Below are positions 1-13,292 of a stretch of DNA of 13,445 bases, in pieces. Both the position numbers and the translations under genes were made by a program. The notes below the pieces were generated by a model that saw nothing but the letters and a program-made list of their open reading frames with translations, was not told where the DNA came from and searched no databases. Origin of the DNA: Parcubacteria group bacterium RIFCSPHIGHO2_01_FULL_47_10b (GTDB lineage Bacteria; Patescibacteriota; Minisyncoccia; 2-01-FULL-47-10). Numbering within the stretch: position 1 is the stretch's first letter; every line of letters starts with the position of its first letter. Location: contig MHXC01000061.1 of assembly GCA_001824325.1 (NCBI GenBank), positions 1-13,445 of the forward strand, read 5' to 3'.

Positions 1-1
1 A

Positions 2-457: not shown

Positions 458-481
458 AGAATAATTATGGAGCAATAAAGT

Positions 482-1033: not shown

Positions 1034-1079
1034 CACACGCACATAGACGAATGGTGTCCCCTATGCTAATCTGAATTAT

Positions 1080-1274: not shown

Positions 1275-1429
1275 CCGTCCTGCAAAAGAGGCCCTCGTCC
1301 CTATCGTTGCTGTTTTGCATCGTTTAGCACTAGAGACAAACATCTCTAAAGTGCGATATTTGTAACTACATATGCGATACAAAAATTTCTCGCGAGCAGT
1401 AGGTTTTATAAACAACAACAGGGTACGGC
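1275..1429 (+). repeat. Gene-poor stretch with two inverted repeats
   Basis: No plausible gene. TGCAAAA (1281-1287) and TTTTGCA (1313-1319) form a perfect 7-bp inverted repeat with a 25-base spacer. Just after it, GCACTAGAGA (1327-1336) and TCTCTAAAGTGC (1343-1354) form a hairpin with a 6-base loop and a two-base bulge. No T-run follows the hairpin, so it is not a canonical terminator. TTTGTA and TACAAA flanking about 1360-1385 form another weak inverted repeat. These may be decayed regulatory or mobile-element ends, or chance in AT-rich DNA. Confidence 0.35.
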
Positions 1430-1534
1430 ATGTATGAGCGGTCTTTACCGCGTGCTATCATGCACAACTTTGCCGATAGAGGCCACTTCAATCAGGAGAC
1501 ATTCCCCGAACTAATACAACTTATTAAGACATAA
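1430..1534 (+). pseudogene. C-terminal remnant of an RBBP9/YdeN-type serine hydrolase
   Basis: The 34-codon frame from ATG 1430 to TAA 1532-1534 ends in a segment that closely resembles the C-terminus of RBBP9/YdeN alpha/beta hydrolases. MHNFADRGHFNQ followed by ETFPELIQLIK matches the family pattern LHxFxDxGHFxxxEFxELI. The His in GHF would be the catalytic-triad histidine. An in-frame stop at 1409-1411 and the absence of any upstream nucleophile (GxSxG) or Asp region show that the rest of the gene is gone. I infer a deletion scar left by loss of a roughly 180-residue hydrolase gene. The similarity was judged by eye from memory; it could also be a short orphan ORF. Confidence 0.5.
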
Positions 1535-1587
1535 CTCACTATGAGCCCATTTCGTGAACAAGAATCTAAGTTCCCATTTAACAGAAT

Positions 1588-1612
1588 AAGCCCTAATGTT
1601 AGAGCTTTTTTA
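1588..1612 (+). terminator. Probable intrinsic terminator
   Basis: AAGCCCTA and TAGAGCTT pair with one C/A mismatch around an ATGT loop, and six Ts follow (1606-1611). It lies between the hydrolase remnant and the ArsR promoter, so it would insulate the downstream operon from upstream transcription. Confidence 0.5.
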
Positions 1613-1641
1613 TTATCGTGATCTAATGGCTGGTAAATTAG

Positions 1642-1650
1642 TGTGGATAA
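1642..1650 (-). promoter_or_regulatory. Perfect DnaA-box 9-mer
   Basis: TGTGGATAA is the exact complement of the DnaA-box consensus TTATCCACA. It sits just upstream of the ArsR promoter -35. I saw no cluster of such boxes, so it may be chance or a single regulatory site and is not evidence for an origin. Confidence 0.25.
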
Positions 1651-1684
1651 CTGTCCTTGACAGATTTTTTTAGTATAATATGAT
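1651..1684 (+). promoter_or_regulatory. Sigma70-type promoter with candidate operator for the ArsR-headed operon
   Basis: TTGACA (1657-1662), a 16-base spacer and TATGAT (1679-1684) form a near-consensus sigma70 promoter; TATAAT at 1674-1679 is an alternative -10 but only 11 bases away. A perfect inverted repeat, CTGTC (1651-1655), CTT, GACAG (1659-1663), overlaps the -35 and is a candidate site for the ArsR regulator. Transcription should start near 1691, after the ATG at 1680. Confidence 0.6.
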
Positions 1685-1718
1685 GAAGCAGTTGCACAAT
1701 TACTTAATTCTAAATAGT

Positions 1719-2054
1719 ATGTTAACAGACCAAGAAATTAAAACGATACAATCGAAATTAAATAAACCAATAGGCAACACGCCCCTGATGTTACAGGCAC
1801 TTGGCGACGCAGGGCGGTTCAATATTTTTCGAGTGCTTATGGATCATCACGATATATGTGTGACTGATGTAGCACATATTTTCGGCATCACAGTTTCAGC
1901 GGCGTCGCAGCAATTACGTGTACTTGAGCGTCTGGGCTTAGTCATAAAAATTCGAATGGGCCAAATGGTTTGTTATGAAATCAATCGTGCCCATCCAACG
2001 GTTAAGCACATGTGTTTATTCATTAAAAAGGTCGATAAACAAAATACTAATTAA
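1719..2054 (+). CDS. ArsR/SmtB-family transcriptional regulator
   Basis: A winged-helix regulator of 111 residues from ATG 1719. The frame can be extended to ATG 1680, but that codon lies inside the -10 of the promoter, so 1719 is the better start. The helix-turn-helix spans about residues 46-72: DICVTDVA corresponds to the ELCVxDLA helix of the family, and TVSAASQQLRVLERLGLV is the recognition helix. The beta-wing follows (IKIRMGQMVCYEI). ArsR proteins repress their own promoter and release DNA on binding a metal or on thiol oxidation. Only one Cys is in the alpha-3 position (C47), so the classic CxC arsenite site is absent. C85 and C99 in the wing and last helix are further candidates. It heads the long operon, and the inducer is likely a metal or redox signal (inference). 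Confidence 0.85.
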   Translation: MLTDQEIKTIQSKLNKPIGNTPLMLQALGDAGRFNIFRVLMDHHDICVTDVAHIFGITVSAASQQLRVLERLGLVIKIRMGQMVCYEINRAHPTVKHMCLFIKKVDKQNTN

Positions 2055-2070
2055 TGATAACAAAAAAACT

Positions 2071-2307
2071 ATGACCAAAGTAACCATATACACTACTCCA
2101 AGCTGCGTTTATTGCAAAATGTCTAAGGCATTTTTTAAGGAACATAACATAAAGTACGAGGAAAAAGATGTTTCGCTAAGCGATCAGTCGAGACAAGAAA
2201 TGCTCGACAAGTCGGGACAAATGGGTGTGCCGGTAATTGCTATTGACGGCACTATCGTCGTTGGTTTCGACAAAGCGCGATTATCAGAGTTACTTCATAT
2301 TAATTAA
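2071..2307 (+). CDS. Glutaredoxin-like (YruB/NrdH-type) thiol oxidoreductase
   Basis: A 78-residue single-domain protein from ATG 2071; the upstream in-frame extension overlaps arsR and is not conserved-looking. TTPSCVYCK carries the active-site pair C12-x2-C15, GVPVIAI supplies the cis-proline that shapes the glutaredoxin active site, and the C-terminal VGFDKARLSELL is typical of the YruB-like glutaredoxin subfamily. It would exchange dithiols in the cytoplasm, reducing disulfides on partners and being re-reduced by a thioredoxin reductase-like enzyme; a TrxB-like gene is 4.5 kb downstream in the same run. It lies 16 bases after arsR. Whether it serves ribonucleotide reductase, peroxide defence or CcdA cannot be told. 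Confidence 0.9.
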   Translation: MTKVTIYTTPSCVYCKMSKAFFKEHNIKYEEKDVSLSDQSRQEMLDKSGQMGVPVIAIDGTIVVGFDKARLSELLHIN

Positions 2308-2322
2308 AAAAAGTCAGCACAT

Positions 2323-2907
2323 ATGAACAACAAAGTGCTAGTTATCGGAGGAGTTATCGTACTTGGTGTGGGCTTTTTAATTGTCGGGGCTCTGTATAAT
2401 GACAAAACGCAAACTATACCTCGGTCCTCGCAAGCACCTACATTGACACCAACAGCACAAATAAGCGCATCTGTGTCTGAGACTGCTATGCCCACAGAAA
2501 AAAACCCGAACCTCGCGCCGGACTTTACGCTCCAGCGACTGAGCGGAGGCACAATAACACTCGCAGAATTTAGGGGCGTAAAACCAGTCGTACTTGACTT
2601 TTGGGCATCATGGTGTCCCAACTGTCAGCGTGATATGCCAAAACTCAATGGAATGTATGAAAAATATAAGGATGATATTGAAGTCATCGGCATAAATTTG
2701 CAGGAACGCGAATCAACGGTCAAACAATTTGTCTTATCAAAGGGTATTTCGTTTTCAATTGCACTTGATCCGCTTCGGTTGGCGTCGAACGCGTTTGGCG
2801 TTCAATATACGAATACACACCTGTTGATTGATAAGAACGGCGCAATCGTAAAAGTGATTCCTGGCGATATTCGAGAGAATGATATTATATCACTGATCAA
2901 ACAATAA
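2323..2907 (+). CDS. Membrane-anchored TlpA-like thioredoxin (paralogue 1)
   Basis: 194 residues. Residues about 4-25 form one hydrophobic segment without a lipobox Cys, so it is a signal-anchor. A Thr/Ser/Pro-rich linker (about 26-60) follows, then a TlpA/ResA thioredoxin domain starting at APDFTLQRLSGG. The active site is WCPNC with C98 and C101; the cis-Pro loop expected near NTHLLIDKNG has a Thr in place of the usual Pro, which is odd. TlpA proteins reduce extracytoplasmic disulfides or deliver electrons to partners, and are reduced by CcdA-type membrane proteins; ccdA is at the end of this gene run. The ATG at 2323 is 15 bases after the glutaredoxin, and the DUF3179 gene starts one base after the stop, suggesting co-expression. 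Confidence 0.88.
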   Translation: MNNKVLVIGGVIVLGVGFLIVGALYNDKTQTIPRSSQAPTLTPTAQISASVSETAMPTEKNPNLAPDFTLQRLSGGTITLAEFRGVKPVVLDFWASWCPNCQRDMPKLNGMYEKYKDDIEVIGINLQERESTVKQFVLSKGISFSIALDPLRLASNAFGVQYTNTHLLIDKNGAIVKVIPGDIRENDIISLIKQ

Positions 2908-2908
2908 T

Positions 2909-3964
2909 ATGCGTTCCCCAAAGGTAATTATTGCATTCAGTGGAGTAGTGGTCATTATTATTGTAGCTTTTGTTGTATTCGGACTCACAACACCGGCAGA
3001 TCTGCCGGATGCGTCGAATAATCCGTTGAGTGTCTCCGAGTCTGCATCTGAGGCCGAAAACACAAAGCAAATTGAGACGCGGCAAGTTGAGAGAGAAATT
3101 ATGAGCACAAATAGCGTAAAACACAGCGTTCCGTTTGAAGAAATAATTGGAGGCGGGCCGCCACAAGATGGCATCCCGTCTATTGATAGCCCTCATTTCG
3201 TATCTACCAGCGAAGCGAGTGAGTATCTGGTAGCGAGCGATCCCGGTATTGCGCTTGCAATCGGAGACACTGATCGATTCTATCCGTTCCAAATACTGGT
3301 ATGGCATGAAATAGTCAACGATACTATCAAGGGGAAGCGGGTGTTGGTGAGTTACTGTCCGCTTTGTTTATCCGGTATTGTCTTTGATCCCCTAGTCAAT
3401 GGCGAACGAGTCGAGTTTGGAACCTCGGGCAAGCTATGGAATTCAAATTTAGTGATGTATGACCGCAAAACAAACTCGCTCTGGTCGCAAATTCTGGGGG
3501 AGTCAATTGTTGGCGACATGACTGGCACAAAACTCGATATACTACCATCAGACCAGATTCGCTTCGGAGAATGGAAGGAGCTTCATACTGACGGCGAGGT
3601 ACTCTCACGCGATACAGGAGCGGATCGATTCTATGGGCAGGACCCGTATGGTGATTACTATACATCCCCGGGCACTATATTTCCCGTAGGAGAGGGCGAT
3701 GCACGTCTCGGCGAAAAAGAATATATTTTAGGAATTGTGATAGACGGTAAGGCAAAAGCTTATTGGCCGCAGGCAATTAAGAGCGTTGGAACGATAGAGG
3801 ATTTTTTCGCCGGTAAAATCATTGTTGCACGATACGAAGCGAACATTGACGCGGTGCGCCTGTTTGAAAAAAAGGCGGACGGATCGCTACAGCGCATCAA
3901 TCCCTTCGGGGCATTCTGGTTTTCGTGGGTTGCGGCACACCCAGATAGTGAATTATTTAATTAA
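2909..3964 (+). CDS. Anchored DUF3179-domain protein
   Basis: 351 residues. Residues about 5-26 are a strongly hydrophobic anchor, followed by a polar linker to about residue 60. From there to the end it matches DUF3179: a W-H-E-I-V-N segment, then VSYCPLCLSGIVFD, FGTSGKLWNSNLVMYDRK and SLWSQILGESIVG. The CPLC motif puts C150 and C153 in a CxxC arrangement conserved in the family. No enzyme activity is established for DUF3179. The CxxC and tight coupling to tlpA (one-base gap) make a secreted redox or metal-binding partner of TlpA the obvious hypothesis. The protein would face outside the membrane. Family call is strong; function is inference. Confidence 0.88.
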   Translation: MRSPKVIIAFSGVVVIIIVAFVVFGLTTPADLPDASNNPLSVSESASEAENTKQIETRQVEREIMSTNSVKHSVPFEEIIGGGPPQDGIPSIDSPHFVSTSEASEYLVASDPGIALAIGDTDRFYPFQILVWHEIVNDTIKGKRVLVSYCPLCLSGIVFDPLVNGERVEFGTSGKLWNSNLVMYDRKTNSLWSQILGESIVGDMTGTKLDILPSDQIRFGEWKELHTDGEVLSRDTGADRFYGQDPYGDYYTSPGTIFPVGEGDARLGEKEYILGIVIDGKAKAYWPQAIKSVGTIEDFFAGKIIVARYEANIDAVRLFEKKADGSLQRINPFGAFWFSWVAAHPDSELFN

Positions 3965-3980
3965 TTGTAAATTCACCTAT

Positions 3981-4451
3981 ATGTCTATCGTTAAAATCGA
4001 AGGAAATCATGTAAGAGCAGGCGTTGTAGCAGGTATTCTCGCCGGCGTTGTGTTTGGCGCCATGATGGGGATGGCAGGGATGCTCCCTATGGTAGCGGCA
4101 TTGCTTGGCGGCAGTTCCGCCCTATTTGGCTTTGTGCTCCACCTGTTGTTTAGTGCGATCATCGGAGTGGTCTTTGCTATTGTCCTTGGCCATTCGGCGC
4201 AGGATAAAACCCAAAGTATACTGCTCGGCGTCATATATGGTTTTGTGTGGTGGATTCTCGGGCCGCTTCTTATCATGCCGGTATGGCTCGGAATGGGGGT
4301 GCAATTATCTATTAATGGTATGCAGGGAGCGTTGCCAAGCTTGTGGGGGCATTTGGTGTATGGCTTTATTCTTGGGCTTATCTATCCAATTATTGCCGTT
4401 AAAAAAAGTCTGGGTGGCGAATACCGCGATGGCGTAACAAGTAATACGTGA
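3981..4451 (+). CDS. Gly-rich four-TM membrane protein, function unknown
   Basis: 156 residues from ATG 3981; a longer reading upstream overlaps the DUF3179 gene in another frame and is unlikely. About four membrane segments can be seen, near residues 12-32, 45-68, 76-98 and 120-138. Small residues dominate (GILAGVVFGAMMGMAGM), with a His at the edge of the second segment and a WGH before the fourth. The Gly/Ala/Met-rich helices recall YagU/DUF1440-like or DUF6789-like membrane proteins, but I cannot assign it. It sits 16 bases after DUF3179 and 12 bases before the Mqo-like gene, so it is probably part of the same transcript. A role as membrane partner of the redox proteins is only guilt by association. 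Confidence 0.7.
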   Translation: MSIVKIEGNHVRAGVVAGILAGVVFGAMMGMAGMLPMVAALLGGSSALFGFVLHLLFSAIIGVVFAIVLGHSAQDKTQSILLGVIYGFVWWILGPLLIMPVWLGMGVQLSINGMQGALPSLWGHLVYGFILGLIYPIIAVKKSLGGEYRDGVTSNT

Positions 4452-4463
4452 TACACCCGTAGA

Positions 4464-5831
4464 ATGTCAAAAAATACTGACTACGATGTGCTTATTATTG
4501 GCGGCGGAGTAACGGGTACGGCGCTCCTCTATGCTTTATCGAATTACACGAATGTCCAGAGGATGGGGATTATCGAGAAATATGATGAGTTTGGTGAAGT
4601 AAGCACCCATTATAATAACAACAGCCAGACCCTGCATTTCGGTGATATCGAGACGAATTACACGCTTGAAAAAGCGACGCGGGTGAAGGAAGCGGCTGAT
4701 ATGCTTACCATATACCTCCATAGATACGCCAAAAATGCGTTCGTTAAAGGCGGAAAAATGGTGATTGCCGTTGGGAATACTGAAATACAAGAACTGGAGA
4801 AGCGATATAGTGAATTCAAGGAGCTCTTTCCAAAATTGAAAAAACTTGACCGTGATGAGTTAGAAAAAATAGAACCAAAATTGATCGAAAAAAGAAGCAA
4901 GACTGAAAAATTATTGGCGTTATATACTGACGACGGTTACGCGGTCAATTATAAAAAGTTAGCGCAGTCGTATGTAAAAGAGTCGCTTCGCTCCAGTGAG
5001 GCACGAGTGATAGAAAAAAGGGGGAGAACTATTGATACGCTAATGAATACTACGGTTCAGCGAATTGAAAAAGCGGAGGGCGGTTTTCAAGTAGTAACCA
5101 CTCGGGGGACGCTGCGTGCACGTGCCGTTGCGGTAACTGCCGGTCCCTATAGCTTGGTATTTGCGAAGCAACTGGGCTATGGCAAGGAAATGGGCTTATT
5201 ACCGGTAGCTGGCAGTTTCTACTGCGGCAATAACTTGCTTCGCGGCAAGGTATACACGATGCAGGTCAAAAAGTTACCCTTCGCCGCCATTCACGGCGAC
5301 CCCGATGTCAATGATGGGAGTGAAACCCGCTTCGGTCCAACTGCAAAAGTATTGCCAATGCTTGAGCGCTACGACTATAAAAGTGTTCGTCACTTTTTTA
5401 AGGTTTCGGTGTGGACTATCCGGGGTGTGATAAGCTTGTTTCGGATTATCGCCGATTGGACTATTTTTACCTACATTGTGCATAACTTTCTATTTGACAT
5501 ACCAATCGTCGGGAAATGGTTGTTTTTACAAAAAGCGCGAAAAATCGTTCCTTCGTTGAAATATATGCAACTGCGTTACGGAAAGCATATCGGGGGTATA
5601 AGGCCGCAAGTGGTAAACACAAAAACCATGAAGATGGAAATGGGCGAGGCGGAAATAGTTGGAGATAAAATATTGTTCAATATCACGCCGTCCCCCGGTG
5701 CCTCGGTGTCTCTAAAAAATGCCGAGCAGGATGCCTTAAAAATAATACAGTTTTTGAAACCGCATTTCCAATTCGATAAAAAACGTTGGTGTCGAGATTT
5801 CGAGTCAACAATGGTATCATGTAGTGAATAG
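4464..5831 (+). CDS. mqo: Malate:quinone oxidoreductase-like FAD flavoprotein
   Basis: 455 residues, close to the length of the shorter Mqo proteins. The N-terminus has a dinucleotide-binding fold for FAD (DVLIIGGGVTGTALLYALS, residues about 9-27). The segment NNSQTLHFGDIETNYTLEKA (about 52-71) is characteristic of Mqo. The C-terminal region has GGIRPQVVN and FNITPSPGASVSLKNAE, again Mqo-like. Mqo is a peripheral membrane enzyme that oxidises L-malate to oxaloacetate and reduces quinone. Related 2-hydroxyacid dehydrogenases share the fold, so the substrate could be another hydroxyacid. Presence beside DoxX suggests a quinone-linked membrane step, which would be notable in a lineage usually lacking respiration. 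Gene symbol reflects sequence family, not proven activity. Confidence 0.8.
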   Translation: MSKNTDYDVLIIGGGVTGTALLYALSNYTNVQRMGIIEKYDEFGEVSTHYNNNSQTLHFGDIETNYTLEKATRVKEAADMLTIYLHRYAKNAFVKGGKMVIAVGNTEIQELEKRYSEFKELFPKLKKLDRDELEKIEPKLIEKRSKTEKLLALYTDDGYAVNYKKLAQSYVKESLRSSEARVIEKRGRTIDTLMNTTVQRIEKAEGGFQVVTTRGTLRARAVAVTAGPYSLVFAKQLGYGKEMGLLPVAGSFYCGNNLLRGKVYTMQVKKLPFAAIHGDPDVNDGSETRFGPTAKVLPMLERYDYKSVRHFFKVSVWTIRGVISLFRIIADWTIFTYIVHNFLFDIPIVGKWLFLQKARKIVPSLKYMQLRYGKHIGGIRPQVVNTKTMKMEMGEAEIVGDKILFNITPSPGASVSLKNAEQDALKIIQFLKPHFQFDKKRWCRDFESTMVSCSE

Positions 5832-5852
5832 TTAATTTCTAAAACAACACAT

Positions 5853-6236
5853 GTGGTCGAACAACTTACGCAGTATAGTGATATCGGACTTTTGTTAGTG
5901 CGAATTGGGCTGGCAGTTATTTTTATCTATCACGCCATACCAAAGGTGAAAAATTCGAAAGGCATGGCACAAATGGTCGGAATGCCTGTGGGCATGGTTC
6001 TTATGCTTGGCATGCTCGAGTTACTCGCATCCCTCGGCCTGATCGTTGGTTTGTATGTTCAACTTTCGGCTCTTATTCTTGCGGTTATCATGCTAGGAGC
6101 AATTGGTATGAAAATGATGAAGTGGCACGTCCCCTTCGCGGCAGTGGATAAAACCGGTTGGGAGTTTGACTTCATTCTGTTTGCTTCCAGTATCGCTCTT
6201 ATATTAGCAGGCGGCGGTTCAATTGGAATTCAATAA
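5853..6236 (+). CDS. DoxX-family membrane protein
   Basis: 127 residues with four predicted membrane segments. The N-terminal LLLVRIGLAVIFIYHAIPKV is the DoxX signature (Arg in the first helix, then a His-containing turn). The later LGMLELLASLGLIVGL and WEFDFILFASSIALIL segments also fit. The start is GTG at 5853; the ATG at 5851 is out of frame and meets a stop quickly. DoxX/DoxD relatives act with quinone-linked sulfur oxidation in archaea, and in mycobacteria DoxX associates with superoxide dismutase and a sulfurtransferase in thiol-stress defence. Here it follows the Mqo-like gene by 21 bases, which supports a joint membrane redox role (inference). Confidence 0.85.
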   Translation: MVEQLTQYSDIGLLLVRIGLAVIFIYHAIPKVKNSKGMAQMVGMPVGMVLMLGMLELLASLGLIVGLYVQLSALILAVIMLGAIGMKMMKWHVPFAAVDKTGWEFDFILFASSIALILAGGGSIGIQ

Positions 6237-6250
6237 CGGTATAAAAACTT

Positions 6251-6574
6251 ATGACAATCACCATACTCCATAATGCAATCTGTAATATCTGGGAGACAAC
6301 GAAAGAGATTATAGAAACCATTTTAAAAGAAAACGGTCTTACCACGACGATCGAGGAAATTGTAATCACAAACGATAGTGAAGCAAAGGAGTACCATTTT
6401 TCAGGATCTCCCCAAATACTTATCGATGGCATAGATATTGATCCCATGGCGTCTAAAATTACGAACTATCACGAGTCAGGCTGCAGACTGTATATGTGGA
6501 AAGGTGTGTTGCACGAAGGACCATCGAAAGAAATGCTGGTAGAAGCAATTAAAAAAGAAAAAAGAAATCTCTAA
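6251..6574 (+). CDS. Thioredoxin-fold protein with a single active-site Cys
   Basis: 107 residues with the order of a thioredoxin fold: a strand (TITILHN), a turn with C11 where CxxC would be (CNIW, so the second Cys is missing), a long helix, a strand, then FSGSPQILIDG with a probable cis-Pro at 54. C78 lies in SGCRLYMW, near the C-terminus. Similar small proteins are often labelled 'alkylmercury lyase-like' or DF-family thioredoxin-like in annotations, but the organomercurial lyase active site is not evident and I do not claim that activity. C11 and C78 could form a disulfide or bind a metal. Its stop TAA shares one base with the next ATG (TAATG), so the two are probably translationally coupled. 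Confidence 0.6.
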   Translation: MTITILHNAICNIWETTKEIIETILKENGLTTTIEEIVITNDSEAKEYHFSGSPQILIDGIDIDPMASKITNYHESGCRLYMWKGVLHEGPSKEMLVEAIKKEKRNL

Positions 6575-6786
6575 TGCACGATAATTACGAAAATATCAAT
6601 GAAGAAGGAGTATATAAAGTAGGAAGCGTGGTGCCGGAAGACGGCGTATATGCTTGTGTTCCCTGTGGAAATAAGAAATTTTTGAAGGCCGGCTCTCGGT
6701 TCAAAAGTTGTCTTGCGTGTTTTGGTAAGGAGAGGAGACTGTTCAGGAAAGGCATGGAACTTTGGGAAAAAATTGCGGATAAGTAG
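6574..6786 (+). CDS. Small zinc-ribbon protein coupled to the thioredoxin-fold gene
   Basis: 70 residues. GVYACVPCGNKKFLKAGSRF and SCLAC give two CxxC knuckles (C28/C31 and C46/C49), matching a one-zinc ribbon with the turn 'KAGxRFxxC' common in short bacterial zinc-ribbon proteins. The C-terminus is basic and helical. It begins at ATG 6574, overlapping the preceding stop by one base. Such ribbons may act as metal chaperones or as small adaptors; nothing here decides. The pairing with a single-Cys thioredoxin-like protein suggests a joint thiol or metal job, which is inference. Confidence 0.65.
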   Translation: MHDNYENINEEGVYKVGSVVPEDGVYACVPCGNKKFLKAGSRFKSCLACFGKERRLFRKGMELWEKIADK

Positions 6787-6817
6787 GATAATAAGTAATT
6801 ATTAGTTTGCTGCGCCT

Positions 6818-7771
6818 ATGAATTATGATGTTGTTATAATTGGTTCTGGAGCGGCAGGGTTGGGAGCTGCCATATATGCGAGTAGGTATCGCATGAAGGT
6901 TCTTGTAATTGGCAAGGATTTTGGCGGTGAAACGGCAAAAGCCGGGAGCATCGAGAATTATCCTGGTTTTGACCTTATAGATGGCTTTGATTTGATGCTT
7001 GCAATGAAAAAACAAGCGGATAATTTGCAAGTTGAAACACTGGACGCCGAAGTGATGGCCATTGCGCGTCAGGAACATTGTTTTGCGGTGACCGCTGGCA
7101 ACGCTACTTACCAAACGCATGAAATTATTTTTGCAATAGGTGCCGAGCGACGTCGCCTCGGGCTTCCGAATGAAAGGGAGCTTACGGGCAAAGGTGTGCA
7201 TTACTGCGTTACTTGCGATGGGCCGGTCTATAACGGTAAAATAATCGCTATGGTCGGCGGTGGTGATGCTTCGGTTAAGGGCGTTATACAAGCGTCGGAA
7301 TATGCCAAAAAGGTATTCTTAATTGTTCGGGGTAAAAAGGTCTCTGCAGAACCTATCAATATAGAACGATTGGAAAAACTCGGTAATAAAGTTGAAGTGT
7401 TACTCGAGACTGAAGTCAAGGAATTACTCGGTGCGAATAAACTGGAAAGGGTAAAATTTTCAAGGCCATTCAACAACTCCGATGAACTGATAATCGACGG
7501 CTTATTCGTTGAGATAGGAGCAGTGCCGAATGTTCAACTTGCACAATCACTCGGCGTAGAGCTCGATGATCGTGGCTATATCAAAGTAGACAATATGATG
7601 AAAACCAACATTGATGGCGTCTTTGCAGCGGGTGATATTGTGAATCATTTCGGTTCGTTTAAGCAAGGCATTACCGCCGCCGCGATGGGAGCGGTGGCCG
7701 CTACCTCGGCATATGACGATCATAAAATACACGGAGAATTATGCCAGTATCATGCGCTGCCATCCCCGTAA
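6818..7771 (+). CDS. trxB: Thioredoxin reductase-like flavoprotein
   Basis: 317 residues, the usual length of low-molecular-weight thioredoxin reductases. The FAD-binding motif is at the N-terminus (VVIIGSGAAGLGAAIYASR), the redox-active CVTCDG has C130 and C133, and the C-terminal FAD-binding segment reads GVFAAGDIVNHFGSFKQGITAAAMGA. The second nucleotide-binding site has GGGDASVK, but where NADPH-dependent enzymes carry HRRxxxR this protein has VRGKKVS, lacking the second and last arginines. The electron donor may therefore be NADH, or another carrier, as for archaeal and ferredoxin- or flavin-linked relatives. It would reduce a thioredoxin or glutaredoxin in the cytoplasm. It lies in the operon 31 bases after the zinc ribbon. 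Confidence 0.88.
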   Translation: MNYDVVIIGSGAAGLGAAIYASRYRMKVLVIGKDFGGETAKAGSIENYPGFDLIDGFDLMLAMKKQADNLQVETLDAEVMAIARQEHCFAVTAGNATYQTHEIIFAIGAERRRLGLPNERELTGKGVHYCVTCDGPVYNGKIIAMVGGGDASVKGVIQASEYAKKVFLIVRGKKVSAEPINIERLEKLGNKVEVLLETEVKELLGANKLERVKFSRPFNNSDELIIDGLFVEIGAVPNVQLAQSLGVELDDRGYIKVDNMMKTNIDGVFAAGDIVNHFGSFKQGITAAAMGAVAATSAYDDHKIHGELCQYHALPSP

Positions 7772-7839
7772 TAAATGGGTGATGGCCCCGGTCGGGTGCA
7801 TGTAATTGTAATCAATAAATCATTTAAGTTTCAGAACGT

Positions 7840-8208
7840 ATGAAAAATATGAAATCAATGATGGTGCCTATGCTAATCCTCATGATTCTTGTGGTCGCTT
7901 CTTTGGTGTTCGTATCGCAAGGAATTAGTATGCACCAGCAAGTGTCGGTCGAGGAAACAAAGTTCCACGCACTTCAACAGGATTACTTTATTATGAGTAA
8001 AGTGGAGCGTGAAGCAGCAGTAACCGGATCGCAGCTGAATCAAAAACTGGTTCAAATCCAGAATTATCCTTCTGAACTTTTGCGCCTGAAACTCGTCGGA
8101 GTTGGAAAAATTTTGACGGGCATTTTTGTTTCACTCTTGACCATCGTCTTCCTTCTCTTTATGATGCCAATTCGTTTGGCGAAATTGATGAAGGAGAATA
8201 AGTCGTAA
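7840..8208 (+). CDS. Two-TM membrane protein, function unknown
   Basis: 122 residues. The N-terminus is Met-rich and hydrophobic (about 7-28), the second membrane segment is about 88-112, and the C-terminus is basic (KLMKENKS). Between them lies a polar, helix-prone region of about 55 residues with heptad-like spacing of hydrophobic residues, probably outside the membrane. There is no Cys, so it is not itself a thiol redox protein. I recognise no family. It starts 68 bases after trxB, the largest gap inside the gene run; a short GC-rich palindrome CCCG-GT-CGGG is in that gap but no T-run follows. It could be an assembly partner for its membrane neighbours. Confidence 0.65.
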   Translation: MKNMKSMMVPMLILMILVVASLVFVSQGISMHQQVSVEETKFHALQQDYFIMSKVEREAAVTGSQLNQKLVQIQNYPSELLRLKLVGVGKILTGIFVSLLTIVFLLFMMPIRLAKLMKENKS

Positions 8209-8244
8209 AGGTCGACATTGATAGTCATTAATAAATCAATAAAG

Positions 8245-8256
8245 TTAATCAATTAA
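8245..8256. promoter_or_regulatory. AT-rich palindrome upstream of the Cys-rich miniprotein
   Basis: TTAAT-CA-ATTAA is a 12-base inverted repeat located 10 bases before the miniprotein ATG, within a very AT-rich 58-base gap. It could be an operator, but AT-rich palindromes are common by chance. Confidence 0.2.
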
Positions 8257-8266
8257 ACTCAAATTT

Positions 8267-8443
8267 ATGAACGAATCGGAAAAAAAGTGTACGACATGTG
8301 GCGGTCAAGTTTTGGGATATAAGTGCGACATGTGCGGCACTGAAGCGGAACAGCACGATGAGAACCACGCATGTGGTGGTAATCATTGTGTAGCCAAGTG
8401 CCACGGCTGCAAGCAAGCGGAAACTAAGTGCAGCTGCGCCTAA
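8267..8443 (+). CDS. Cys/His-rich metallothionein-like miniprotein
   Basis: A 58-residue ORF from ATG 8267 to TAA 8441-8443. It has ten cysteines (C8, C11, C20, C23, C36, C41, C45, C48, C55, C57) and four histidines (30, 34, 40, 46). The first four Cys form two CxxC knuckles (CTTC, CDMC) that look like a zinc ribbon. Then come HACGGNHC, CHGC and a terminal CSC, a density and mix typical of metallothioneins or Cu/Zn chaperones. It probably binds soft metals such as Cu(I) or Zn(II) in the cytoplasm; there is no signal peptide. It lies between membrane and TlpA genes of the operon and 4.7 kb before csoR-copA. Coding is supported by the clean frame, the regular Cys spacing and the fit between neighbours; identity with a named family is not established. 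Confidence 0.75.
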   Translation: MNESEKKCTTCGGQVLGYKCDMCGTEAEQHDENHACGGNHCVAKCHGCKQAETKCSCA

Positions 8444-8481
8444 GGTAAGTGAGGACACAAAAAAGGCTTTCGCAAATCATT

Positions 8482-9021
8482 ATGAAAAAAGTTTACCTTT
8501 TTGGCATTCTTATAACGGTTTTCGTCCTTGGCTGGTTTTTGATTTCTAAAACCAGTCAAGGACCCACTGAAAACTCGAATGCGCTCTCTGAGCGGGAAGT
8601 TCAGTTAGAAAAGGCGCCGACTTTTAGCTTACACGATTACAGCGGAGGGATTGTCAGCCTTGCGGACTTTGCCGGTAAGCCGCTCCTGATAAATTCATGG
8701 GCGGCATGGTGTCCGTTCTGTCGCAAAGAATTGGTGGATTTCGCGATCGCCCAAAAAGAGTTCGGAGATCAGATAGTTATTATTGCCATTGATCGTGCCG
8801 AGTCGTTACAGGTTGCCAAGGGCTATACTGATCAACAGGGAACCACCAATGATCTGTTATTTCTATTAGATCCGAAAGACTCGTTTTACCGGTCAATCAG
8901 TGGTTTCTCGATGCCGGAGACAATCTTTGTTAATGAAAATGGCTTGATAGTCGAGCACAAACGAGGACCCATGGACATAAACGAGATTCGCGAAAAAATA
9001 GAAAAACTCTTAGCATTATGA
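8482..9021 (+). CDS. Membrane-anchored TlpA-like thioredoxin (paralogue 2)
   Basis: 179 residues from ATG 8482. A GTG at 8449 would add 11 residues before the hydrophobic anchor and is less likely. Residues about 4-23 are the anchor (no lipobox), then a short linker leads to the TlpA/AhpC-TSA-like domain at APTFSLHDYSGG. The active site is WCPFC, C77 and C80. The cis-Pro is present in SMPETIFV, unlike paralogue 1. The protein would sit outside the membrane as a disulfide reductase or oxidant partner, powered by CcdA. It follows the Cys-rich miniprotein by 38 bases. The different CxxC dipeptide (PF versus PN) suggests a different redox potential or partner from paralogue 1. Confidence 0.88.
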   Translation: MKKVYLFGILITVFVLGWFLISKTSQGPTENSNALSEREVQLEKAPTFSLHDYSGGIVSLADFAGKPLLINSWAAWCPFCRKELVDFAIAQKEFGDQIVIIAIDRAESLQVAKGYTDQQGTTNDLLFLLDPKDSFYRSISGFSMPETIFVNENGLIVEHKRGPMDINEIREKIEKLLAL

Positions 9022-9048
9022 GACATCACTATCCTGATCAAGGATAAC

Positions 9049-9252
9049 ATGGAAACACTCGCTCTCACCTTTGATATTATCGGAAAAGTCATAATCGCAT
9101 ATACGGCACTTGCGGTACATCACCGTGTCTGGAAAGAACACAAAATAGACAAAATGGTTTTCCGTATAATGAGGCGGGAACGAGTGATCGGCATTTTGGG
9201 AATGGTTCTAATGGTATCCGCATATTTGTTACATATTTATGCAAAGTCATAA
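9049..9252 (+). CDS. Small two-TM membrane protein
   Basis: 67 residues with two hydrophobic segments (about 5-24 and 46-64) separated by a short basic loop with HHRVWKEHK and MRRERV. An AAGGAT sequence precedes the ATG at 9049, a possible weak ribosome binding site. The last 14 bases overlap the start of the Zwf-Gnd gene, so the two are likely translationally coupled. No Cys is present. I recognise no family. The overlap and operon position are the main support that it is a real gene. Confidence 0.6.
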   Translation: METLALTFDIIGKVIIAYTALAVHHRVWKEHKIDKMVFRIMRRERVIGILGMVLMVSAYLLHIYAKS

Positions 9253-11629
9253 CAACAAACAACTAAAGAATACTATTCCAACGATCCTCGTGATTTTGGG
9301 TGCCACAGGAGACTTGGCGGGAAAAAAGATTTTTCCGTCGCTTTGGCATCTTTTTCAGCACGGCCGTTTGCCGGGACGTTTTATGGTCATTGGTTTTTCA
9401 AGAAGCAATCTTTCTAGCGACGATTTCAAAAAACTGGTGCGTAACTCTATAGAGAAATGCGTTGGTAAAAAAATAGAAGAGAATGCTTTTTCGGGCTTTT
9501 TTAGGCATTTTTCATACCAATCAGGGACATTCGAAGATAAAGAATCTTTTTTGACGCTCGCCGGGCAAATTTCTAAGATCGAATCAACTTGGGGAGTATG
9601 TGCGAACAAACTTTTTTATCATGCCGCGCCTCCCGAGACCTATAAAACGATTTTCAAGAATCTTGCTTCGGCTAAATTAAATCTTCCCTGCGGCGGGGAT
9701 CTTGGCTGGACCCGCATGCTTATTGAAAAGCCGTTTGGAAGAGACTTAAAAAGCGCGCGAGAACTCCAGGATCTTCTCACCGCGTACTTCAAGGAAGAGC
9801 AGATCTACCGTATTGACCACTATCTTTTTAAGGAAATTGTGCAGGGGATAGAGAATTTTAGATTCTCAAATAATCTTTTTGAACATAACTGGGATAATAC
9901 CATGGTAGAACGCATCGACATCCGCCTCCATGAGACCATAGGCGTAGAAGATCGCGGAAATTTTTACGATACCATTGGCGCGTTGCGCGATGTGGGACAA
10001 AACCATCTCTTGACCATACTCGCTGCGCTGACTATGGAATATCCGCAAGATGGGGAGGTAGACTCTGTTCGCCAGAACCGGGCAGCAATTTTAGAAACCC
10101 TTGTGCCGTGGACAAGCCAGACAATACAAAAAAATACCTATCGGGCTCGATATGGCGGATATAAAAATATCAAAGGGGTAGATCCTGATTCCCAAACAGA
10201 GACGTTTTTCGCGCTGAAAACCGAACTTCTCCATCCGCGATGGAGGGGAGTGCCAATATTGATGGAGGCGGGGAAAAGAATGAATGAGGCATATAAAGAA
10301 ATAACGTTGACTCTAAAACATCCCAGGGTTTGTCATTTATGCGACATTGGATCGCACGGGATGAATAAAATAGTCTTCCGCCTTGAGCCGAATGATGAAA
10401 TCATTATCCACTTTTGGACAAAAAAGCCGGGCTTCGAACACGCCATGGAAGAAAGGGTGTTTTCTTTTTATCTATATGAGAAGGAAACAAAAGCGCAATA
10501 TGTGGAGGAATATGCCAAAATCCTTGACGCCGCGACCAAGGGCAAACAAGCGCGCTTTGTATCATCCCAAGAAGTGGAGGCACTATGGAAGTTTACTGAT
10601 CCGATTGTCGCTGGTTGGAGACGGAACCTCGTGCCATTGGTTGAATATGATCCCGGTGTCACTCCGCGCCCATCTCTTACACAAGAGGTGTCCGATACTA
10701 AAGACAAAAGAATAGCTGCTCCCGTCAGAGAAATTGGCGTTGTCGGTTTAGGTAAAATGGGGGGCAGTTTGGCGAGGCGTTTATCGGTAAATGGGTGGCG
10801 CGTTGTTGGATTCAATAGAACGCCGAGCGCCACAAAAAAACTTGAAAAAGAGGGTATCGTCGGCACGTATTCATTGAAAGAATTTGCGAAAAACCTTTCC
10901 GCTCCGCGTACCGTATGGCTGATGATTCCCGCGGGGAAGCCCGTGGACGAAGTGCTATTTGGTAGAGACGGCCTCGCACAACTACTCGAGAACGGCGACA
11001 CCATAATTGATGGTGGAAACTCTTTCTATAAGGATTCTATGAGTCGTGCACAAAAATTGAGCGCAAAGAGAATTCATTTTCTCGACGTTGGTGTTTCTGG
11101 GGGGCCGACCTCCATCCATCTTGGGAAATTTGCCATAATGGCGGGCGGTGAGAAAAATATATACGAGAAAAGCAAACCGATTTTTGTTGCCATGTCCGAT
11201 ACAACTTCCGGATATATGGGAGCATCGGGTGCCGGACATTTCGCAAAAATGGTTCATAACGGCATTGAGTACGGCATGATGCAAGCGCTCGCGGAGGGTT
11301 TTACCATACTCAAAAAAGCACCCTTTCAATTCAAATTAAAAGATGTCGCCAATGTGTATAACCAAAACAGCATCATTACGTCGCGGCTTACAGGTTGGCT
11401 GGAGGAAGGATTCAAAGAGTATGGAGAAAACTTGACAAAAGCATCTGGATCAGTGGCTCATACCGGGGAGGGGAAATGGACGGTCAAGGTCGCTAAAGAG
11501 CTTGGCGTGCCTGCTCCGATCATCAAGAAGTCGTATCTATTTCGGGTCAGTTCACAAAAAAATCCATCGTTTATCGGGAAAATTCTTTCCACCCTTCGCG
11601 CCGTCTTTGGGGGTCATCGTATAAGTTAA
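9239..11629 (+). CDS. zwf-gnd: Fused glucose-6-phosphate dehydrogenase / 6-phosphogluconate dehydrogenase
   Basis: A single uninterrupted 796-residue frame. Residues about 14-475 are G6PDH: NADP-binding GATGDLAGKK, IEKPFGRDL, the substrate motif RIDHYLFKE (R191-E199; the usual Gly before Lys is Phe) and catalytic-type His256 in QNH. After a linker (about 476-497), residues 498-790 are a short GndA-type decarboxylating 6PGDH: GVVGLGKMGG, MIPAG, DGGNSFYKDS, DVGVSGG, GHFAKMVHNGIEYGMMQA (K670, N674) and TGEGKWTV, ending FGGHR. G6PDH oxidises glucose-6-phosphate to the lactone with NADP+ reduction; 6PGDH converts 6-phosphogluconate to ribulose-5-phosphate and CO2, giving a second reduced cofactor. 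The lactonase step lies between and is not in this protein or window; the lactone also hydrolyses spontaneously. It likely feeds NADPH to the thiol system. Confidence 0.93.
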   Translation: MQSHNNKQLKNTIPTILVILGATGDLAGKKIFPSLWHLFQHGRLPGRFMVIGFSRSNLSSDDFKKLVRNSIEKCVGKKIEENAFSGFFRHFSYQSGTFEDKESFLTLAGQISKIESTWGVCANKLFYHAAPPETYKTIFKNLASAKLNLPCGGDLGWTRMLIEKPFGRDLKSARELQDLLTAYFKEEQIYRIDHYLFKEIVQGIENFRFSNNLFEHNWDNTMVERIDIRLHETIGVEDRGNFYDTIGALRDVGQNHLLTILAALTMEYPQDGEVDSVRQNRAAILETLVPWTSQTIQKNTYRARYGGYKNIKGVDPDSQTETFFALKTELLHPRWRGVPILMEAGKRMNEAYKEITLTLKHPRVCHLCDIGSHGMNKIVFRLEPNDEIIIHFWTKKPGFEHAMEERVFSFYLYEKETKAQYVEEYAKILDAATKGKQARFVSSQEVEALWKFTDPIVAGWRRNLVPLVEYDPGVTPRPSLTQEVSDTKDKRIAAPVREIGVVGLGKMGGSLARRLSVNGWRVVGFNRTPSATKKLEKEGIVGTYSLKEFAKNLSAPRTVWLMIPAGKPVDEVLFGRDGLAQLLENGDTIIDGGNSFYKDSMSRAQKLSAKRIHFLDVGVSGGPTSIHLGKFAIMAGGEKNIYEKSKPIFVAMSDTTSGYMGASGAGHFAKMVHNGIEYGMMQALAEGFTILKKAPFQFKLKDVANVYNQNSIITSRLTGWLEEGFKEYGENLTKASGSVAHTGEGKWTVKVAKELGVPAPIIKKSYLFRVSSQKNPSFIGKILSTLRAVFGGHRIS

Positions 11630-11652
11630 TACATAAATTTATTGATTAAAAT

Positions 11653-12099
11653 ATGATCGACCACGCTCAAATTAAAAAATTAGAATACAACTACATTACC
11701 GATGGCATTTATATAGGTACTAATCAGTGTTGTCAAACGCATTTTGATGAAAAGTTAACAAAGGAAGGAATCACTGCGGATATTTCCCTGGAAGAAGATC
11801 GGATTGACGCGCCGTTCGGTGTTGAGTTCTATGTTTGGATTCCGGTAAAAAATCACGTATCACCCACACCAGATCAACTTGAGTTCGGTGTATCGGTGCT
11901 GGAGAAGCTGGTCTCGTTGGGGCGGAAAATTTATGTACATTGTAAAAATGGACATGGCCGAGCCCCCACCCTGGTTGCAGCCTATCTTGTAAAAAATGGC
12001 AAAACCCCACAAGAAGCCGAGGAATATATTAGGCAAAGGCGTCCGACAATTCATCTTGAGAACGTTCAACGCCAAGCATTAATAAATTTTAACCGCTAA
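11653..12099 (+). CDS. Dual-specificity phosphatase-like protein
   Basis: 148 residues matching a compact DSP/PTP domain. The P-loop is VHCKNGHGRAP with the nucleophile C97 and Arg103 (C-x5-R). Upstream, IPVKNHVSPTPDQL occupies the general-acid loop; many relatives have Asp where this protein has Asn67, so turnover may be reduced or the acid may come from elsewhere. The start region TDGIYIGTN is typical of DSP-like folds. Substrates may be phosphoproteins, phosphoinositides, RNA or small phosphates; none can be assigned. It follows the Zwf-Gnd gene by 23 bases and precedes ccdA by 8, so it is in the operon although its link with redox chemistry is unclear. The thiolate Cys is a plausible target of oxidation. 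Confidence 0.82.
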   Translation: MIDHAQIKKLEYNYITDGIYIGTNQCCQTHFDEKLTKEGITADISLEEDRIDAPFGVEFYVWIPVKNHVSPTPDQLEFGVSVLEKLVSLGRKIYVHCKNGHGRAPTLVAAYLVKNGKTPQEAEEYIRQRRPTIHLENVQRQALINFNR

Positions 12100-12107
12100 A
12101 CATACCT

Positions 12108-12863
12108 ATGGATTTATCGCTTATCATACCCGCATTTATCGCCGGTATTCTGACCTTTCTCGCTCCGTGCACACTTCCTTTGGTGCCGGGCTACTTGGGG
12201 TTTATCAGCGGCGTGTCCACGAATGATCTGCAAAATCAAACCAACTCAAAAATCGTGCGTAGGAAGATTTTTCTCAATGGCGTACTGTATGTGATTGGGT
12301 TTAGTTTGGTTTTTATCATTCTAGGCAGCTTATTTGGTCTTGGCGGATCCGCGCTAATTAAATACCGACTCTGGCTTTCCCGCATAGGGGGCATCTTTGT
12401 GATATTTTTTGGGCTGTTTATGATCGGTATCTTGAAGCTTCCGTTTATGAACGTTGAGAAGCATGTAGGACGGATAAAGGCCCTCAAACCAGGTAATCCT
12501 GTTAGCTCGCTTATTTTTGGGGCTACGTTCGCCTTTGGATGGACGCCGTGCGTTGGGCCTATTCTTGGCTCCATATTGACACTAGCTGCTTCGTCAGCCA
12601 CGGTTGGTCAGGGAGCATTGCTACTTTCAGTTTTCTCGTTAGGTCTTGCAGTGCCGTTTTTACTCATCGCCGCGACCATCGGTTCTGCGTCGAAATACCT
12701 CCCAAAATTGACAAAACATCTCAATACGATATCGATCATTGGTGGCGTGTTCCTTGTTTTCCTTGGTATCTTACTGCTTACCAATAAACTTGGTATTTGG
12801 ATTTCGTATTTTTATCAAATTTTTGGCTTTATTAACTACGAAAGTCTTTTGGACTATTTGTAG
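12108..12863 (+). CDS. ccdA: CcdA/DsbD-type thiol electron transporter
   Basis: 251 residues with six membrane segments, the size of CcdA. The two redox cysteines are in the family signatures LAPCTLPLVPGY (C21, first helix) and GWTPCVGPILG (C148, fourth helix); both prolines adjoining each Cys are kept. CcdA takes electrons from cytoplasmic thioredoxin and passes them across the membrane to extracytoplasmic thioredoxin-like proteins. Two such proteins (TlpA-1 and TlpA-2) are encoded upstream in the same run, making a complete reducing relay with the TrxB-like enzyme and glutaredoxin. It begins 8 bases after the phosphatase. It is the last gene before the csoR promoter region, and I see no clear terminator after it. 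Confidence 0.92.
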   Translation: MDLSLIIPAFIAGILTFLAPCTLPLVPGYLGFISGVSTNDLQNQTNSKIVRRKIFLNGVLYVIGFSLVFIILGSLFGLGGSALIKYRLWLSRIGGIFVIFFGLFMIGILKLPFMNVEKHVGRIKALKPGNPVSSLIFGATFAFGWTPCVGPILGSILTLAASSATVGQGALLLSVFSLGLAVPFLLIAATIGSASKYLPKLTKHLNTISIIGGVFLVFLGILLLTNKLGIWISYFYQIFGFINYESLLDYL

Positions 12864-12867
12864 TCGC

Positions 12868-12895
12868 TTGCGTCCAGCACTTTTTGAGGTATACT
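12868..12895 (+). promoter_or_regulatory. Possible upstream promoter for csoR
   Basis: TTGCGT (12868-12873), a 16-base spacer and TATACT (12890-12895) copy the layout of the better promoter 70 bases downstream, including GGTATACT. No CCCC/GGGG operator is present in its spacer, so it would be copper-independent if real. Evidence is only consensus match. Confidence 0.3.
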
Positions 12896-12937
12896 ATGTT
12901 ACGGTTGGGATCACACCAGTTGTTCTTCCAGTCTTCC

Positions 12938-12965
12938 TTGACACATACCCCCCTCGGGGTATACT
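12938..12965 (+). promoter_or_regulatory. csoR-copA promoter with embedded CsoR operator
   Basis: TTGACA (12938-12943), a 16-base spacer and TATACT (12960-12965) form a strong sigma70 promoter. Within the spacer and running into the -10, ATACCCC (12945-12951), CCTC, GGGGTAT (12956-12962) is the G/C-tract inverted repeat typical of CsoR operators. CsoR bound here would block RNA polymerase; Cu(I) binding would release it. Transcription should begin at about 12972, immediately before the csoR ATG at 12973, giving a leaderless or nearly leaderless mRNA. Confidence 0.85.
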
Positions 12966-12972
12966 TTTACAT

Positions 12973-13254
12973 ATGACCCACACTAAAGACACAAAATCAA
13001 ATAAACACCGCTTCATCCGACGCCTCAAAATTATCGAGGGTCAGGTTCGTGGTCTACAAGAGATGTTGAACAACAACGCCTACTGCATTGACGTAATTAC
13101 ACAGACGTCAGCAGTGAAACAGGCGCTGTCCAACGTGGAGGATTTATTAATGGAAAATCATCTCGGGACGTGCATTGTGCACCAGATTCAGGAAGGACAG
13201 ACGAAAAAGGCGACAAAAGAAATTTTAAAAGTGTATCAACTGAAGCGAAAATAA
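12973..13254 (+). CDS. csoR: Copper-sensing repressor CsoR
   Basis: 93 residues from ATG 12973. A longer frame to 12739 overlaps ccdA and is not real, because the promoter ends just before 12973. It is an all-helical CsoR/RcnR-family protein: RRLKIIEGQVRGLQEML is the hallmark first helix. The Cu(I) ligands are C38, H63 and C67, with spacing C-x24-H-x3-C identical to the CsoR triad of Mycobacterium tuberculosis, which favours copper over nickel, formaldehyde or sulfide sensors of the same family. It binds the operator in its own promoter in the apo form and releases DNA with Cu(I). copA follows after 38 bases, so both are copper-induced together. Confidence 0.93.
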   Translation: MTHTKDTKSNKHRFIRRLKIIEGQVRGLQEMLNNNAYCIDVITQTSAVKQALSNVEDLLMENHLGTCIVHQIQEGQTKKATKEILKVYQLKRK

Positions 13255-13292
13255 TCCGCAAGCTATCTTTTGGTAATATTTGACTGATTTTA

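Follow-up and report, generated by a model that had tools for sequence, protein, structure and literature searches.

Do the 17 genes that run from arsR to ccdA in a Parcubacterial genome belong to one system, and what would such a system do? The window analysed here is a stretch of 13,445 nucleotides (contig MHXC01000061.1, C61 in our genome set, positions 1 to 13,445 of the forward strand) of Parcubacteria group bacterium RIFCSPHIGHO2_01_FULL_47_10b. This genome (G000) is 1.01 Mb in size, is 92.8% complete and is the sole representative of its order in the compared genome set. Patescibacteria have very small genomes, and many of them are regarded as host-dependent; the genes that they retain and pass among themselves are therefore informative. 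An earlier sequence-only reading described the 17 genes as one regulated island for thiol redox and metal stress. As described below, the core of the island is ArsR, glutaredoxin (Grx), a DUF3179 protein, a TlpA-like thioredoxin and CcdA, and the remaining genes of the run are cargo. With a probability of roughly 0.6, the island would be an expanded version of a mobile operon of Patescibacteria that reduces extracytoplasmic thiols, is induced by stress and has the DUF3179 protein as its terminal partner.

The arrangement of the run is as the sequence-only reading had it: 17 consecutive genes on the + strand with no gap above 68 bp, the largest being that between trxB and mem11 (gene names are given in Table 1). 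Overlaps between neighbouring genes are also present, but there are two of them (-1 and -14 bp), and "several" was a generous word. Same-strand runs, for which open reading frames (ORFs) were called mechanically, are ordinary in this genome: in 20 sampled stretches they reached 24 genes, or 11 genes when no gap above 70 bp was allowed. This means that strand and spacing alone prove little; it is the synteny that shows the run to be more than chance.

Two samples were searched for homologues. In the class sample (383 genomes, G000 included), matches were found in 18 genomes for MqoL, 69 for Zwf-Gnd, 3 for mem5 and 25 for DUF3179; in the phylum sample (379 genomes), DUF3179 matched in 22, again including G000. 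All 46 DUF3179 neighbourhoods outside G000 (45 genomes; G356 has two) were compared with the window proteins. Neighbours were counted on the same strand within 8 kb, and identities were taken from tblastn stretches; several loci end at contig edges (e.g. L090, L091, L095, L103). The 29 closest loci, with DUF3179 identity of at least 47%, contain TlpA in 26, CcdA in 25, ArsR in 23 and Grx in 20 cases, and all four together in 17. The corresponding values for all 46 loci are 33, 30, 26 and 22. Gene order is also kept: within 5 kb in the 29 loci, ArsR is upstream of DUF3179 in 23/23 and CcdA is downstream in 23/23. As controls, 34 loci without DUF3179 were used, 17 centred on MqoL and 17 on Zwf (19 Zwf loci out of the 69 matching genomes, mostly the best-scoring ones, minus two with DUF3179). 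These hold no ArsR, no TlpA, one CcdA and three Grx.

The other genes behave differently. In the 29 closest loci the dual-specificity phosphatase (DSP) was found 8 times, DoxX 7, TrxB 6, Zwf-Gnd 3, mem5 and the DF protein once each, and MqoL never, which rules out the whole 17-gene set as a conserved unit. The synteny check from arsR to ccdA, proposed in the sequence-only reading, thus came out positive for the core, in agreement with the cysteines and gene fusions described below, but not for the full set. The description of the system as unusually complete for a reduced genome was misleading, since the core recurs as a module across Patescibacteria. A long parallel is seen in G027, a genome of another family, in which ArsR, Grx, DUF3179, mem5, DoxX, TrxB, CysR12, TlpA2, DSP and CcdA follow the window order, ten genes over about 9 kb. 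In G060, mem5 lies about 9 kb and MqoL about 14 kb beyond DUF3179 on its strand, so that a loose link of these two cargo genes to the island is possible. MqoL was also considered as an anchor of the island and was rejected: in the 17 other class genomes that carry it, no ArsR, Grx, TlpA or CcdA is found on its strand within 8 kb, and its pairing with DoxX is kept in one of the 17. As side observations, the DSP copies keep the catalytic Cys97 in 8/8, and in L088:9407-10224 (G159) the DUF3179 gene is broken by stop codons while the other core genes are present.

These data bear on the view that, in a genome with long directons, 17 unrelated accessory genes have come to share a strand by chance. 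The 24-gene runs elsewhere in the genome and the several genes not kept with the core would be consistent with it. It is nevertheless highly improbable for the run as such, because the core keeps its order and co-occurs in many families with near-zero values in the controls, because DUF3179 is fused with CcdA or TlpA, and because of the ten-gene parallel in G027. For the core this view is refuted; for MqoL, ZnR9 and mem11 it is possible.

The gene fusions are a stronger link between DUF3179 and CcdA or TlpA than proximity on the chromosome. According to Pfam, TlpA and DUF3179 form one protein in L107 and L108 (G469 and G681, of one family), and CcdA and DUF3179 form one protein in L109 and L111 (G586 and G704). 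Furthermore, in a search with one divergent Patescibacterial DUF3179 protein, 58 of the best 120 of 6916 homologues also carry PF02683; Gottesmanbacteria, Levybacteria, Roizmanbacteria and Daviesbacteria are among the listed proteins of this kind. The named near relatives of the window DUF3179 are Parcubacteria and other Patescibacteria.

The predicted redox cysteines of the core proteins are nearly invariant. Counted over the 29 closest loci in copies where the residue is covered, Cys12 and Cys15 of Grx are conserved in 20/20 and 19/20, Cys150 and Cys153 of DUF3179 in 27/27, Cys21 and Cys148 of CcdA in 25/25, and Cys60 and Cys98 of ArsR (numbered from a start at 1680) in 23/23. The TlpA pair is kept in 26/26 for the TlpA1 and the TlpA2 query alike; these two counts are not independent, since both queries can match the same gene. 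The CPLC motif of DUF3179 is found in 98/98 aligned proteins. DUF3179 also appears among the selenoproteins in two published tables, in a UxxC/T form, which fits a redox pair.

With a deeper alignment, the AlphaFold2 (AF2) model of the DUF3179 protein reached a mean pLDDT of 89.4, compared with 66.2 for an earlier poor model. As modelled, the protein may be a Rieske-like barrel that carries the CPLC pair and is without an iron-sulfur ligand motif. Rieske clusters are bound by a C-x-H ... C-x-x-H motif, and NirD is a known example of the fold. This motif was found in 0/98 of the DUF3179 sequences. Foldseek gave no row at E <=0.001 for either model. By sequence, no relative was found in the PDB at E up to 1, and a second search gave two rows at chance level (E 0.21 and 0.55). 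In the open-licence literature, the mentions of DUF3179 by name that were seen assign no function to it. DUF3179 proteins are also found on plasmids; those of Thiothrix, Deinococcus and Halorussus (three of 27 matching plasmid records) had no ArsR-CcdA setting. On the Thiothrix plasmid, DUF3179 is flanked on the opposite strand by genes for a protein with a thioredoxin domain and for a GDCCVxC (seleno)protein.

The island probably moves horizontally, as its genes are far more similar to those of two other families than other genes are. The median identity of the genes shared with G027 is 72%, compared with 46.6% over 47 reciprocal best pairs from outside the island (p 1e-5); with G375 it is 65.5%, compared with 35.1% for 23 pairs (p 6e-5). 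The genomes were sampled for this purpose (20 stretches of G000, 18 of G027 and 20 of G375), and the island values are those of the best stretches of the genes that were found, excluding a 16-residue mem11 match of G375. A mis-binned contig was considered and rejected, because the composition of the window is not foreign: the GC content is 0.441 against a mean of 0.464, and the tetranucleotide correlation is 0.906 against a mean of 0.873 (20 sampled stretches). Since the composition fits the genome, any transfer into this lineage would not be recent, or would come from similar genomes.

The regulatory region was compared over 27 arsR genes, those of the window and of the other loci. The strong promoter described previously exists as an 11/12 match, but sigma-70-like matches are at chance level across the window (26 found, 25.4 expected). 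TTGACA lies upstream of 14/27 island arsR genes, compared with a shuffle mean of 1.0. The inverted repeat over the -35 is also exact in the window, but it is found upstream of 1/27 arsR genes, namely the window's own, and was thereby ruled out as a conserved operator. Another element, between the -10 and the gene, is conserved instead: read on the - strand, it is identical to that of L075 at 23/26 bases and to that of L069 at 22/26, and 0/500 shuffles scored as high. In many arsR relatives the palindrome TTAAGYANTTGCTTAA precedes the ATG (at least 14 of 16 positions in 9/27; at least 13 of 16 in 12/27). The start of arsR is probably at 1719 and not at 1680, because the closest relatives begin at "MLT" and a start at 1680 would fall inside the proposed -10.

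The ArsR protein passes the ArsR/SmtB profile. Its best solved relative is CadC by single sequence and Lmo1102 by profile. The site nomenclature of CadC and SmtB, the operator form of CsoR and the cysteine positions of SqrR and BigR served as background. Cys60 is kept in 26/27 and Cys98 in 27/27 (1680 numbering; all loci, window included); from the start at 1719 they are Cys47 and Cys85. The α3 Cys-x-Cys of the CadC type is not found: CVT stands in place of CVC, with its first cysteine conserved, and an invariant cysteine in the wing takes the place of the second. The earlier specification of the stress as metal stress is not borne out by this arrangement. The vicinal cysteine pair of RexT is also absent from the window ArsR. 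In the part of the RexT report that was available, the α3 cysteine is described as in contact with the wing (PMC8960804). From this contact, and from the lone α3 cysteine and the conserved wing cysteine, we infer that a disulfide or metal bridge may join the predicted switch residues Cys47 and Cys85.

Window proteins were assigned with Pfam and NCBIfam profiles at their curated cut-offs. Most of the families named in the sequence-only reading (ArsR, glutaredoxin, two TlpA-like proteins, TrxB-like, CcdA, DoxX and Zwf-Gnd) were recovered by one or the other, but Mqo was not confirmed. The scores of this flavoprotein, here called MqoL, are far below the NCBIfam cut-offs for TIGR01320 / PRK05257 (48.4 vs 549.95) and for the best malate:quinone subfamily (77.5 vs 499), and also for L-2-hydroxyglutarate oxidase (92.9 vs 299); it passes the broader PF06039 of Pfam (69 vs 27). 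DUF3179, the DF family and the phosphatase had gone unnamed. CcdA has the DsbD_TM domain with two redox cysteines, and both TlpA-like proteins have a Redoxin or AhpC-TSA domain with CxxC; the latter fail the NCBIfam profiles for ResA (107.3 and 59.7 vs 170) and TlpA (54.5 and 55.5 vs 230).

On the proposed reading of an extracytoplasmic thiol-reducing operon, ArsR would keep the genes repressed and release them once its Cys47 and Cys85 have reacted with oxidants, reactive sulfur or thiol-binding metals. Electrons would leave reduced nicotinamide, be passed by the TrxB-like flavoprotein and then by glutaredoxin to CcdA, and be moved by CcdA across the membrane to TlpA and then to the CPLC pair of DUF3179. 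The DUF3179 protein might repair oxidised thiols in exported proteins or reduce an oxidant directly. MqoL, DoxX, the DF protein, the phosphatase and the small membrane proteins would be variable cargo.

The source of the reduced nicotinamide would here be Zwf-Gnd, a single 796-aa protein with TIGR00871 at 441.5 vs 400.6. Its Gnd domain is of the short type (TIGR00872 322.2 vs 297.2; NF007161 332 vs 271) and would use NAD or NADP. This fusion is not unique: of the 383 genomes, at least 12 others have an uninterrupted frame across both domains to the end, and elsewhere the two are adjacent separate genes. Downstream of the core of G356, and on its strand, come genes for a Glu/Leu-type dehydrogenase, Zwf, Gnd, a 6-phosphogluconolactonase-like protein (which passes the cut-off of Pfam but not that of NCBIfam), an ROK kinase, a GH15 protein of the trehalase-like type and a TrxB-like protein. 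This set suggests that sugar oxidation feeds the relay, with the genes from the trehalase-like one to Gnd as the putative source in that relative. In addition to the island copies, the genome of the window encodes another TrxB (33% identity) and another DsbD_TM protein. In the C-terminal tail of the island TrxB (7742-7768), the cysteine is kept in 4/4 island copies that align there.

In another explanation the relay is linked to quinones: MqoL or NDH-2 together with DoxX would exchange electrons with membrane quinones, while the thiol arm would offset the disulfides made by DsbA-like proteins. Between mem5 and DoxX of G027, where the window has MqoL, lies an NDH-2-like protein (L069:10157-11407), and in L102 a protein that is NDH-2-like by eye lies between arsR and DUF3179. 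The DoxX count, the distant MqoL and mem5 of G060, and a cluster of 11 loci that includes a DsbA-like Thioredoxin_4 protein (one member scanned) also fit such a relay. This explanation is nevertheless regarded as quite unlikely. MqoL is absent from the 29 loci within 8 kb; 18 of the 383 genomes carry it, G000 included, and its other 17 loci are separate from the core as stated above. In addition, no haem-copper oxidase (COX1, PF00115) was found in the 92.8%-complete genome, other oxidases not being searched. Separately, in L028:8806-11087 (G062), MqoL and DoxX form a pair in the absence of the island; the small protein ahead of them looks exported and, by eye, resembles a DM13 domain.

The main rival is an operon that detoxifies thiol-binding metals such as mercury, cadmium and arsenic. 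Here ArsR would be the metal sensor and the relay would restore thiols, while the metal itself would be handled by DF, MerC-like, MerA and Cys-rich proteins. Metal handling is present in some versions of the island: in G115 (L080:12801-14653), MerA is above the cut-off (488.5 vs 454.45), and MerC-like and DF proteins lie in the same-strand run of the island. However, MerA was seen in this one locus, without a systematic count. A cluster including MerC-like proteins is found in 4 loci; two of its four members were scanned, and both are below the Pfam cut-off. The window itself has a DF protein, and its CcdA weakly matches the ArsG arsenical-permease family (58 vs 200). Among the 17 genes, however, neither MerA nor any recognised exporter of metals scores above cut-off, several membrane proteins being unassigned. 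The TrxB-like protein scores 66.2 against the MerA cut-off of 454.45, and the window has no other MerA candidate. A gene for CsoR follows the run, and its repeat is operator-like (ATACCCC-CCTC-GGGGTAT, 12945-12962). This repeat lies inside the promoter-like TTGACA-N16-TATACT at 12938-12965, which the sequence-only reading had correctly placed after the run; with its own promoter-like site and palindrome, csoR seems to form a separate operon. Together with the missing second cysteine of the α3 CVC in ArsR, these points make the metal operon an unlikely reading of the window.

Several points weigh against the proposed thiol-reducing operon. The 47% limit that separates the 29 closest loci was chosen after the data had been seen, and the 17 more divergent loci hold TlpA in 7, CcdA in 5, ArsR in 3 and Grx in 2 cases. 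The divergent DUF3179 proteins of L113 and L117 lack the first cysteine or both. The lone CcdA of the controls is in L052, in a run of Zwf-Gnd, DSP and CcdA at a contig end; this locus may be a cut island. Matches to the operator consensus at fewer than 13 of 16 positions are found in 15/27 arsR upstream regions, and the consensus was derived from the same sequences on which it was scored. The relay varies at its cytoplasmic end, as TrxB occurs in 6/29 and Zwf in 3/29 loci. The TrxB-like protein has CVTC, and TIGR01292 is its best family, but it is below the cut-off (294.8 vs 343.45), and it lacks HRRxxxR, the NADPH motif. The use of NADPH by this protein is therefore doubtful, which makes the step from Zwf to TrxB a putative one.

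If the relay is as proposed, a conserved and apparently exchanged operon that sends reducing power outward points to a stress shared at the cell surface. DUF3179, a widespread family, thereby gains its first testable role, and the CcdA-DUF3179 fusion offers a compact object for biochemistry. A wider proposal is tentative, and the balance is somewhat against it: DUF3179 might found a new class of extracytoplasmic thiol oxidoreductases, with a Rieske-like barrel without iron-sulfur ligands and a CPLC pair (selenocysteine in other taxa), powered directly by CcdA and often fused to it. A mobile ArsR-controlled operon would then spread it among Patescibacteria as a shared answer to oxidants or thiol-binding metals.

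Table 1. Features of the arsR to ccdA island in the window (scores are given against the profile cut-off)
Feature	Position	Strand	Remarks
Repeat CTGTC-N3-GACAG (CTGTC-CTT-GACAG)	1651..1663		exact, unconserved
Promoter-like TTGACA-N16-TATGAT	1657..1684	+	11/12 match; TTGACA recurs upstream of island arsR
Operator-like element between -10 and arsR start	1686..1711	-	conserved; matches L075, L069
arsR	1719..2054	+	probable start; NF033788 61.3 vs 55; conserved Cys47, Cys85 (60, 98 in 1680 numbering)
Glutaredoxin (Grx), YruB type	2071..2307	+	CVYC; TIGR02196 90.7 vs 88.55
TlpA-like thioredoxin 1 (TlpA1)	2323..2907	+	CPNC; Redoxin or AhpC-TSA domain with CxxC
DUF3179 protein	2909..3964	+	PF11376 282.5 bits vs 27; CPLC at residues 150-153; N-terminal helix 4-25 in model
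mem5, membrane protein	3981..4451	+	DUF1440-like below cut-off; cargo
MqoL, DAO-family flavoprotein	4464..5831	+	fails NCBIfam Mqo cut-offs; cargo
DoxX-family membrane protein	5853..6236	+	PF07681 46.7 vs 23.6
DF-family (DUF2703) protein	6251..6574	+	NF049942 89.5 vs 70
ZnR9, zinc-ribbon-like	6574..6786	+	below Pfam cut-off
TrxB-like flavoprotein	6818..7771	+	CVTC; C-terminal Cys309; without HRRxxxR
mem11, probably membrane protein	7840..8208	+	no family above cut-off; relatives in L074, L089
CysR12, 58-aa Cys-rich protein	8267..8443	+	about 75% identity in L069, L076; 71% in L098
TlpA-like thioredoxin 2 (TlpA2)	8482..9021	+	CPFC; core
mem14, small, probably membrane protein	9049..9252	+	no family above cut-off; relatives in L053, L078, L094
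Zwf-Gnd fusion (glucose-6-P dehydrogenase + 6-phosphogluconate dehydrogenase)	9239..11629	+	TIGR00871, TIGR00872 above cut-off
Dual-specificity phosphatase (DSP)	11653..12099	+	PF00782 56 vs 33.5
CcdA (DsbD_TM)	12108..12863	+	PF02683 68.7 vs 27.1; redox Cys21, Cys148; core

Outside the island, overlapping ORFs on both strands occupy 482-1033 upstream of it. Downstream, behind csoR (12973-13254), a further gene begins whose product resembles a copper ATPase by eye. Elsewhere in the genome, the 16S rRNA gene (G000:C65:6184-9555) is split by large insertions, one of about 0.9 kb within model positions 9-546 and one of about 0.9 kb after position 750.

As such, defence against oxidants is no novelty for these organisms, also called CPR bacteria: one study of CPR genomes from freshwater, in the part that was available, reports glutaredoxins, peroxiredoxins and catalases in almost all its metagenome-assembled genomes. 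In the open-licence literature, searched mostly by titles and listings, a DUF3179-centred, ArsR-controlled, exchanged operon with CcdA-DUF3179 fusions was not found; nor was any open-licence work joining Patescibacteria, thioredoxin and CcdA. As far as the accessible part of the report goes, the RexT-TrxA2 system of Nostoc (PMC8960804) is similar in that an ArsR-SmtB repressor with an α3 cysteine controls a thiol-redox gene. RexT has vicinal Cys40 and Cys41, whereas the island ArsR conserves one α3 cysteine (47) and one wing cysteine (85). MerA has been published for CPR bacteria, and one island relative, with MerA above cut-off, shares this gene with their mer operons. The window, in contrast, lacks MerA, and the DUF3179/CcdA/TlpA core is not described in the portion of that report that was seen (PMC8261052). 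The window protein is a clear member of the DUF3179 family (PF11376), and the Patescibacterial form of this family is tied to CcdA and TlpA.

The closest known relatives of the relay are the CcdA pathways with ResA, TlpA or CcmG in the DsbD superfamily, in which CcdA-ResA serves cytochrome c maturation. The island shares with them a membrane CcdA with two redox cysteines beside TlpA-like thioredoxins. It differs in that the constant partner is DUF3179, accompanied by ArsR and glutaredoxin, and in that CcdA is often fused to DUF3179. Scs/DsbD systems reduce extracytoplasmic thiols under stress by means of a DsbD-like membrane protein; the likeness to the island would be this stress-linked thiol reduction, and the difference is the DUF3179, Grx and ArsR content. 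CcdA-TlpA relays are thus already known, and what appears to be new here, within the literature searched, is their DUF3179-centred form.

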